Source of the DNA: Armatimonadetes bacterium 55-13
GTDB taxonomy: Bacteria > Armatimonadota > Fimbriimonadia > Fimbriimonadales > Fimbriimonadaceae
NCBI GenBank assembly: GCA_001898035.1
Contig: MKRX01000026.1
Location: forward strand, 194,056-258,055
DNA: 64,000 bases
Direction of reading: 5' to 3'
The notes under the pieces: model-generated
Seen by the model: only the letters and a program-made list of their open reading frames with translations
Databases searched by the model: none
What the model was told of the DNA's origin: nothing
Part shown: positions 40,478 through 42,529 of the stretch, piece after piece
How positions within the stretch are numbered: the first letter of the stretch is position 1
Layout of the letters: every line of letters starts with the position of its first letter
Translations under genes and position numbers: made by a program

Positions 40478-40741
40478 TTAGTTAGTGGTAACTTCGCGGC
40501 AGTTCAGGGCGAGGTGGCGGACATCGGTGGCCAATGCCTCTAAGTACTTGCGCGCGCGGTCCACAGCGGCCTTGACCCATTCATCGTTTTGGCGCCGCTC
40601 CGGCGGAAGCTCTTCCAATCGGCTCAGGTAAGCCGCGATCCTATCGCTGAGCTCGGTGAGCTGCCTAGCTTTCTGATCGGGACTAACTCTCGACGTCCAA
40701 ATCCTACGGGCGTTGGTTTCAAAGTGCGCAACGGGGTTCAT
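40478..40741 (-). CDS. Small helical protein B of the c-di-AMP-riboswitch operon
   Basis: The 87-residue, all-helical, charged protein has no signal or membrane segment. It overlaps the upstream gene by 4 bp (ATGA). It is a paralogue of that gene's product: S-V-x5-KAR-x-L ... N-x-EWV-x-A ... RA ... L-x2-L-x2-D-x-R line up without large gaps. Function is unknown. The paired genes are expected to respond to c-di-AMP through the leader riboswitch. Confidence 0.78.
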   Translation of the reverse strand: MNPVAHFETNARRIWTSRVSPDQKARQLTELSDRIAAYLSRLEELPPERRQNDEWVKAAVDRARKYLEALATDVRHLALNCREVTTN

Positions 40742-41070
40742 TTACGGGCCTCCTGTACAGATAAAGATGTAAATGGGGTCGGGGTCGGCTTAGCGTCATA
40801 CGCCAGTTCCGACGGTTGTCGAAGTGCAATGCGGGCTTTTTCGCGAAGATCGTCGTGAAGTTCACTGAGGCGTTCGAATGCCTGCCGAAATCGGTTGGCT
40901 CGAACCCATTCGCCGTTATGCGCCAAGCGGATGCATAAAGCTCCGAGGTGCTTGGTTTTTTTGCGGATATCACGGGCCAGCCTCAGAAGCTTCCGAGCCT
41001 TGCCAATACCGCCAACATGACTGATTTCAACGATTTCGGCAGCCTGCCGAACCGATGATTCAATAAGCAA
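40738..41070 (-). CDS. Small helical protein A of the c-di-AMP-riboswitch operon, TTG start
   Basis: The 110-residue cytoplasmic protein is predicted all-helical (ARKLLRLARDIRKKTKHLGALCIRL, FERLSELHDDLREKARIAL). The start is a TTG at 41070, fixed by the strong GGAGGTAA site a few bases before it. An ATG overlapping that site opens only a seven-codon frame. This is the first gene behind the riboswitch and is paralogous to the next gene. No family is recognised. c-di-AMP riboswitches usually control potassium, osmolyte or cell-wall functions, so a role in osmotic or turgor control is an inference. Confidence 0.8.
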   Translation of the reverse strand: MLIESSVRQAAEIVEISHVGGIGKARKLLRLARDIRKKTKHLGALCIRLAHNGEWVRANRFRQAFERLSELHDDLREKARIALRQPSELAYDAKPTPTPFTSLSVQEARK

Positions 41071-41076
41071 TCGTTA

Positions 41077-41101
41077 CCTCCATGGTGTTTATCCCTGGAG
41101 G
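41077..41101 (-). promoter_or_regulatory. Ribosome-site-sequestering hairpin of the riboswitch
   Basis: On the minus strand CCTCCA (41101-41096) can pair perfectly with TGGAGG (41082-41077), and the latter contains the GGAGG site of the TTG-started gene. This is the expected expression platform for translational control by the upstream aptamer. Confidence 0.75.
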
Positions 41102-41143
41102 GCCTAGCTCTCGCCGATCCGAGACTAGAGGTCCTCTCTTCTT

Positions 41144-41254
41144 AAGCCGACGAGGTTAGCTGACGGGTTCGAGCCAGAGTCGCTCTACGCGTAATCGCGA
41201 TTCACCCCATTCGGATGGGTCCCCCGTTCCAGACCGTGGGTCTGAATTTGGCTT
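41144..41254 (-). ncRNA. c-di-AMP riboswitch (ydaO/yuaA class)
   Basis: The minus strand carries the conserved elements in order: P1 5' strand AAGCC followed by AAATTC, GGAACGGGGGACCCAT, ATGGGGTGAATC, a TAGAGCGACTCT hairpin, and CGAACCCGTCAGCTAACC followed by TCGTCGGCTT, whose GGCTT pairs with AAGCC to close the aptamer. These match the ydaO/yuaA consensus known to bind c-di-AMP. A TATACT at 41266-41261 would place transcription start near 41254, the first aptamer base. The regulated genes are the two small proteins at 40478-41070. Confidence 0.92.
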
Positions 41255-41273
41255 GGGATAAGTATACCCAATT

Positions 41274-41305
41274 CGTCACGTAAGTCGGCTAGGACCTACG
41301 TGACG
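41274..41305. other. Inverted repeat upstream of the riboswitch
   Basis: CGTCACGTA and TACGTGACG form a perfect 9-bp inverted repeat with a 14-base spacer. It lies between the DUF3472 gene stop and the riboswitch promoter. It may terminate the upstream gene (no U-run) or be an operator. Confidence 0.45.
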
Positions 41306-41317
41306 GGTGAAGACCAC

Positions 41318-42529
41318 TTAGTTGGGGAGCGTGGAAATGTCGGGCTTTCGGCCCGTTGGCTTCCGCTCAAAGGTGTCGCCGTACTTGACACCGTTATCTT
41401 CGAATCCACCATTCGCAAGGAAGAAAGCCGTCCCTTTGGGCCCTGCCGAGTAGTCCTTGCGAGCCTCTTTTCCGGTTGGGTCGTGAGTAAACCGCGCCTT
41501 CGTCACTTCCGTCCAGGTTCCATCCTCAGTTTGCATCCACTGGTTCCCAAACTCGGCTTTGCGCAACAGATACCCGTTCGTTCCCCAGAAGTTCTCGTCG
41601 AACGAATAGAACCCTCGCAGGTATCCGCCATCCTTCGGCGCTCGGAAACTGGCGATCAGTTGCCACGCCTTTTTCTCTGGGAAGAAAAAGTAACCGGAGT
41701 AAATCGTCGCCGTTCCTTCCGGCTTGGCGGTCACCAGGAACTTGTACGTCTGCCCCTTCTTCCAGTTGTAGACCTCGTGGCTATGTCCCCCGGTTCCTTC
41801 GTTGCCAAAGTCTCCGGCCACTACGTTCGGCCCTTTGGCCAACAGCTTTACCCGATCCTCCGCGCCGACCTTATCGCGATCGTTCGCCTCGTTTCCGCTG
41901 TCCCAGATGGAGAAAATGATGCGTCGCTCAGTCGGGCTATTCACTTGCATGCCGAAGTAGCCGCGCCGGAACCCGATCGCACAGTAGTAGGTATGAAGCG
42001 GATCTTCTTTCGCCGTGACCTCATTGTAGAACTTCACCACCTTCGCGTCCTCCGGTGTCGGGTATCCCAAATGCACGGAGGCCGCATTGCGCCGTGACTC
42101 CACATTGAAGTGTGCGCCTGCCGTACCCGGACCGCTCAAAACCAACGCGCTCGGCGTTCCAAACGCCGTCCCCTTTTTGCCCAAGGCGCTCAAATCAAAC
42201 TTTTGATACCCCGCCTTTCCAAGTTTGAAAACTCCGAAGTCCACTGAGCCGCTCGCATCGGATTTCGCCACTTTCGTTTGTCCAGCGAACGACATCCGGA
42301 AAGAAGAGCCCGCGCCCTTTCCTCCGGTGATCTGCACTTCAACCTTTACGTTTCCAGACTGCGCAAACTTTCCGAACCACAAAATATGAGTGGCCGGATC
42401 GTTCCAACCCACCACTCCCCGCCGCTCGCTCACCTCGAACGCCTCTGGGTTGGGGCTCAAATATGCGGTAAAGCCAGGAATGCGCAACTCCGATTGCGCT
42501 AAGACAGCGAGAATCGCCAACGATGTCAT
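41318..42529 (-). CDS. Exported DUF3472 (with DUF5077-like) protein
   Basis: The 403-residue protein has a short signal. Its N-terminal part resembles DUF5077 (residues about 15-140). A DUF3472-like domain follows: VHLGYPTPEDAKVVKFYNEVTAKEDPLHTYYCAIGF, then FRAPKDGGYLRGFYSFDENFWGTNG, GNQWMQTEDGTWTEV and FFLANGGFEDNG. Such proteins occur beside polysaccharide-use genes in Bacteroidetes and related groups; activity is unknown. It is separated from the riboswitch operon by about 250 bp. Confidence 0.87.
   Translation of the reverse strand: MTSLAILAVLAQSELRIPGFTAYLSPNPEAFEVSERRGVVGWNDPATHILWFGKFAQSGNVKVEVQITGGKGAGSSFRMSFAGQTKVAKSDASGSVDFGVFKLGKAGYQKFDLSALGKKGTAFGTPSALVLSGPGTAGAHFNVESRRNAASVHLGYPTPEDAKVVKFYNEVTAKEDPLHTYYCAIGFRRGYFGMQVNSPTERRIIFSIWDSGNEANDRDKVGAEDRVKLLAKGPNVVAGDFGNEGTGGHSHEVYNWKKGQTYKFLVTAKPEGTATIYSGYFFFPEKKAWQLIASFRAPKDGGYLRGFYSFDENFWGTNGYLLRKAEFGNQWMQTEDGTWTEVTKARFTHDPTGKEARKDYSAGPKGTAFFLANGGFEDNGVKYGDTFERKPTGRKPDISTLPN

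Follow-up and report, generated by a model that had tools for sequence, protein, structure and literature searches.

A c-di-AMP riboswitch precedes two small helical proteins, one of a family recurrently linked to this switch in the Fimbriimonadales

The window, by which we mean the whole 64-kb stretch of DNA analysed here, is part of contig 26 of a 4.5-Mb genome that is 99% complete and that, from the relatives found, falls within the order Fimbriimonadales (Armatimonadota; relatives include Fimbriimonadaceae). Its sole Rfam match is an aptamer of family RF00379 on the minus strand, where it is followed in order by a 58-nt expression platform and by the genes of two short proteins, P0001 and P0002. 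The features of the locus, including three RNA strands (L, T and A) that are referred to below, are the following.

41129..41263 (-): c-di-AMP riboswitch aptamer (ydaO/yuaA class, RF00379), found at full length by cmscan
41176..41179 (-): strand L, the CUCU of an aptamer loop, proposed to form a pseudoknot with the 3' tail
41133..41142 (-): 3' tail AGAAGAGAGG (strand T), which can pair with L or A
41097..41102 (-): anti-Shine-Dalgarno (anti-SD) strand CCCUCC (strand A), predicted to pair with the Shine-Dalgarno sequence (SD)
41077..41081 (-): ribosome-binding site GGAGG of P0001, 6 nt upstream of the TTG
40738..41070 (-): P0001, 110 aa, started by TTG and belonging to the riboswitch-linked MLTEFEVRR family, which is defined in this work
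40478..40741 (-): P0002, 87 aa, ATG start, 4-bp overlap (ATGA) with P0001

A previous reading of the sequence only had assigned the interval 40478-41254 to a ydaO/yuaA-class aptamer followed by a TTG-started gene and a second gene joined to it by a 4-bp overlap. This description held, except that the aptamer reaches 9 nt further, to 41263 (-). With 94.7 bits (E=4.5e-21), against a cut-off of 38 bits, the match covers model positions 1-134 of 134, and the ydaO motifs and the P1 pairing (AAGCC/GGCUU) named in that reading are present in the alignment. By the covariance model the RNA is a c-di-AMP riboswitch of the ydaO/yuaA (kimA) type, for which ligand binding is predicted. The unusual TTG start of P0001 is supported by its alignment with the conserved start MLTEFEVRR of the family described below. 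On the same strand, the upstream neighbour is a gene for a DUF3472 protein that ends at 41318, and beyond P0002 lies a convergent gene for an HxlR-type regulator. A consensus scan of the minus strand at the locus found neither promoter nor terminator. Between the aptamer and the DUF3472 gene, an inverted repeat, CGTCACGTA...TACGTGACG, was observed at window positions 41276-41306.

The genome carries one diadenylate cyclase (DAC) gene (PF02457 at G000:C6:865712, 133 bits) and three RF00379 aptamers, on contigs C1 and C5 and in the window. The C1 aptamer precedes genes for a methyltransferase, an ABC ATPase and an OpuAC-type glycine-betaine permease, and glycine-betaine transporters of this sort are typical targets of ydaO switches. 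Together, the cyclase and the transporter aptamer indicate that ordinary c-di-AMP signalling is present in the organism.

Both proteins had been described as helical, and AlphaFold2 models bear this out: three helices are predicted with confidence for P0001 (pLDDT 86.8; residues 2-16, 21-51 and 55-84) as well as for P0002 (pLDDT 89.9; residues 3-16, 21-43 and 54-86), in a common layout of a short N-terminal helix followed by two long antiparallel ones. Their paralogy, claimed in the same reading, is probable but not certain, and they would be distant relatives. A single BLASTP comparison of the two gave E=2e-4. A profile of the P0001 family built without P0001 matches P0001 at E=3e-14, and one built without P0002 matches P0002 at E=6e-5, which is only a little above the best (E=1.2e-3) of 20,000 shuffled, composition-matched decoys. 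The full-length ORFs carry residues that are conserved in the family (R8, K24, R26, L71 and A79).

Searches of Pfam, NCBIfam and PHROGs returned sub-threshold matches only for either protein. As the sequence-only reading had anticipated, none of the domains of known ydaO targets, such as potassium and osmolyte transport proteins and cell-wall hydrolases, was found by Pfam or NCBIfam. A profile search of the PDB yielded no relative, listing mainly designed coiled coils and weak matches at chance level, and fold searches with both models returned generic helical bundles whose best Z score, 11.1, is no higher than the chance level for such bundles. The HscB C-terminal domain, the BAG domain, UvsY and dust-mite allergens, all among these fold matches at chance level, were rejected as relatives. 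In Firmicutes, the known targets of ydaO switches are transporters of ions, osmolytes and amino acids, and in Actinobacteria they are cell-wall proteins (PMC9960051), whereas the switch in the window precedes small helical proteins that have no known relatives.

Among 41 relatives, homologues of P0001 were found beside riboswitches only. Over 113 Fimbriimonadales genomes, a family profile identified 34 genes in 31 of them. An RF00379 aptamer of the same orientation precedes 29 of the 34 genes, at a distance of 21-427 nt. All but one of these linked genes are at 21-108 nt from the aptamer, the exception being the second gene of a tandem. The chance of such a placement is about 5e-5 per gene (roughly 5 in 100,000 genes); the linkage is not due to chance, and it recurs in many genera belonging to two families of the order. 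For five genes of the P0001 family, no aptamer is close by; three of them share a setting with riboswitch-linked copies, next to a divergent gene for a solute-binding protein, and the aptamer has therefore probably been lost there. At most loci the family is represented by a single gene.

Extended to the phylum, the search found the family in 32 of 291 genomes, all of them Fimbriimonadales; in one of the 32 the match is fragmentary and lies within a long open frame. No member came from any other order of the Armatimonadota in this set. A first scan of genome contigs with P0001 alone had found no relative, because the family is too divergent, and it was the whole-genome HMM searches that did find relatives. 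Since the diverse family alignment is likewise too variable for a pattern scan, an exact DNA pattern of aptamer core, SD and family start was run against the genomes of 84,980 species. It gave 13 matches, 12 of them with a family gene; the remaining one, L192 (Terriglobia), has none and was discarded as a chance match. These 12 are archived under the names Armatimonadetes, Fimbriimonadales, Fimbriimonadaceae, Fimbriimonas or Chthonomonas, apart from L190 (JADZEW010000035.1), which carries a family gene in a record titled as a Methanoregulaceae archaeon MAG, a title that looks wrong. The P0001 family is an undescribed one, found in Fimbriimonadales and recurrently located directly behind a c-di-AMP switch.

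In the predicted fold of the window leader, CCCUCC (41102-41097) pairs with GGAGG (41081-41077) and leaves the SD an unpaired probability of at most 0.02, in agreement with the hairpin over the ribosome-binding site that had been noted from the sequence. We compared 25 leaders, comprising those of the P0001 family, of a second helical family (see below) and one with a Tad1 homologue as first gene, in which the recurring strands are L (CUCU/CUUUCG), T (GAGAG/CGAAAGAG), A (..CUCC) and the SD. The T:A pairing has a mean of -14.4 kcal/mol with the strands of the same leader and of -11.0 kcal/mol with partners swapped between loci, and none of 5000 permutations was as good. A:SD (p=0.0024) and L:T (p=0.035) were also better than in permuted leaders, and the control pairings L:A, L:SD and T:SD reached no significance in the same 25-leader test. 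The test retains the kinship between loci, which should work against a difference. Covariation thus supports a putative three-way switch in the related leaders.

A closely comparable scheme has been described for the ydaO switch of C. glutamicum nlpC, which was reported to be an OFF switch acting on translation. It has no terminator, and its CTCC strand is proposed to alternate between a GGAG further upstream and the ribosome site (PMC9960051). The proposed CTCC/GGAG arrangement is the same as in the Fimbriimonadales leaders. The two systems differ in their targets, a cell-wall peptidase in C. glutamicum and small helical proteins in the window, and in the upstream partner of CCUCC, which is less clear in the window leader. 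There, every equilibrium fold computed has the SD covered, whether the aptamer is included or left out, and the alternative partner of A computed for the nascent RNA is the GGGGG of the aptamer rather than T. For this reason we infer the OFF direction in the window by analogy, and the switch would have to be a kinetic one. A sizeable minority of leaders, of the AAGAACC...GGAGGAGG type, does not follow the T:A:SD scheme; in some of these, the modelled fold points to an SD masked by the aptamer itself, and this leader type might represent an ON switch. Comparing SD accessibility in the whole leader and in the platform alone, we found no consistent ON or OFF trend over 37 loci; the swapping of strands between loci was the more informative test.

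P0002 has orthologues in two further genomes, at L073 (E=5.9e-13) and L212, and all three genes are the second gene of a c-di-AMP riboswitch operon or follow its first short ORF. At L073 and L212 the next gene encodes a homologue of Tad1 (Thoeris anti-defence 1). In the genome studied here the Tad1 homologue lies away from P0001 and P0002, on contig C9 (L164 1501-1827), so that P0002 is linked to Tad1 by its relatives only; the Tad1-homologue profile matched this one gene in the genome, and neither P0001 nor P0002. Tad1 homologues, with PDB matches to Thoeris anti-defence 1, occur as ordinary chromosomal genes in 68 of the 113 Fimbriimonadales genomes according to the profile search (loci noted: L149-L178, L203-L213). 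About 16 copies are located behind RF00379 aptamers, and in one genus a different small helical gene regularly comes before the Tad1 homologue. Cyclic nucleotides, cyclic dinucleotides among them, are reported ligands of Tad1 proteins, with weak binding of cAA in one case (PMC12043709). In that genus (L203-L210), the gene between aptamer and Tad1 homologue lies about 45-355 nt behind the aptamer and encodes a conserved small helical-looking protein (MSFVSQIMRKASIVERS..., 88-99 aa), for which a profile search gave no support for a relation to P0001.

A second helical-looking family (c4; L055, L062, L073, L093-L095, L097, L214, L215), of about 110-140 aa, has 14 of its 16 copies behind RF00379 aptamers. 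Many of its members end in PFM(E/D)(F/Y)SS, with an upstream tail resembling PRxFAxPxW. Homology to the P0001 family is not claimed, as the profile-profile probability was 7%.

Taken together, these findings are best explained by a two-gene member of a c-di-AMP regulon specific to the Fimbriimonadales, under a translational OFF switch and encoding small partner or adaptor proteins, a combined reading to which we give an even chance. The ydaO-class aptamer would sense c-di-AMP; its binding would stabilise L:T and free A, which would cover the GGAGG of the first gene and turn translation off. Without c-di-AMP, T would hold A in the related leaders and the SD would be open. When c-di-AMP falls, as at low potassium or under osmotic need, the upstream RNA would hold A and both three-helix proteins would be made, P0002 presumably by translational coupling to P0001 through the ATGA overlap. 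P0001 and P0002 would then be small intracellular proteins serving as partners or adaptors, perhaps of each other, in osmotic or cyclic-nucleotide homeostasis; their role as small partners in a c-di-AMP-controlled osmotic or nucleotide module is our guess. The Tad1-type protein in the operons of the P0002 relatives and the loci with transporters of the major facilitator superfamily (MFS) favour such membership in a module. Genes under the switch are members of the c-di-AMP regulon and are not thereby binders of the nucleotide, so that the earlier designation of the two proteins as possible new c-di-AMP effectors is fair only in the sense of new regulon members. That P0001 and P0002 themselves bind c-di-AMP is possible but not favoured.

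The MFS loci also point to another reading, in which the P0001 family would comprise regulators or subunits of transport, anchored beside an MFS transporter and a small membrane protein, with the window copy as a stand-alone branch. Several genomes indeed share a conserved locus of solute-binding protein, riboswitch, family gene and MFS and/or small membrane protein genes, and the second family gene of the genome studied here, on contig C6, stands in the same setting, with the MFS transporter and the small membrane protein downstream and without an aptamer. We regard this as unlikely, since many genomes have no adjacent transporter, nor does the window, and since riboswitch and MFS gene persist without the small gene at several loci. 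At six loci (L050, L064, L081, L089, L092 and L096), the aptamer has been kept before MFS and/or small-membrane-protein genes and the small helical gene is absent, as if it had been lost from under the switch; most of the six retain an SD-like GGAGGAGG.

A further reading is that c-di-AMP is buffered. In its joint form, the chromosomal small helical proteins and the Tad1-type protein would together bind or buffer c-di-AMP at a level set by the riboswitch; we think this distinctly improbable. If true, such buffering would be a bacterial housekeeping counterpart of the cyclic-nucleotide sponges of phages. In a narrower form, to which we attach a low probability as well, P0001 and P0002 would themselves be sponges like Acb2 or Tad1, binding and buffering c-di-AMP or another cyclic nucleotide in an amount set by the riboswitch. 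The frequency of Tad1 homologues and their position behind RF00379, often after a small helical gene, speak for it, and so does the element order of the P0001 model, which by description is that of Acb2, a short N-terminal helix and two long antiparallel ones (PMC12043709). Against it, three-helix bundles are common, P0001 and P0002 have no sequence relation to Tad1, with whose homologues the P0002 orthologues share riboswitch operons, and the PDB offers no sequence relative; Acb2 was not among the matches listed in the fold searches, all of them generic bundles, but this absence excludes nothing.

Small, fast-evolving genes with a 4-bp overlap would also suit a toxin-antitoxin-like or otherwise selfish pair that has captured a riboswitch. 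We consider this very unlikely, as most family loci hold one gene only, many genera in two families show the linkage to the switch, and Pfam offered no match to a toxin or antitoxin. A phage origin was likewise rejected, since phage records and viral contigs contain no relative of the small proteins, which also counts against a selfish pair. That the riboswitch in the window is a relic before non-functional ORFs, as the retained aptamers and lost genes at L050, L064 and L089 might suggest, is hardly credible given the high aptamer score, the strong SD, the full-length ORFs with conserved residues and the confident models.

As members of the regulon, P0001 and P0002 gain interest from the fact that c-di-AMP riboswitches mark genes tied to potassium, turgor and wall control. 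One order holds the P0001 family, a second small-protein family and Tad1-type nucleotide binders behind the same switch class, which gives a short, testable list of candidate players in c-di-AMP biology beyond Firmicutes and Actinobacteria. It may also connect c-di-AMP with proteins that are familiar chiefly from phage counter-defence. A recurrent, switch-linked small-protein family would mark a new branch of c-di-AMP biology.

About 22 of the 60 RF00379 aptamers of the Fimbriimonadales have no apparent gene downstream, one of them in the genome studied here (L041 508-900; G000:C5:288807-289200) and others at L043, L045, L046, L049, L056, L060, L065-L067, L069-L072, L075, L076, L079, L080, L082, L086, L088 and L090. 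Five of these loci were compared with Rfam and showed no family besides RF00379. The aptamer is followed by 75-205 nt with a conserved CACCTCCT, in most cases CACCTCCTGTTGAGC or CACCTCCTGAC, at their end and a strong intrinsic terminator a few nucleotides further on. CACCTCCT is at the same time the anti-SD of the 16S rRNA 3' end. These loci could encode a c-di-AMP-controlled small RNA with an anti-SD, or an unusually long expression platform, and their novelty may exceed that of P0001 and P0002.
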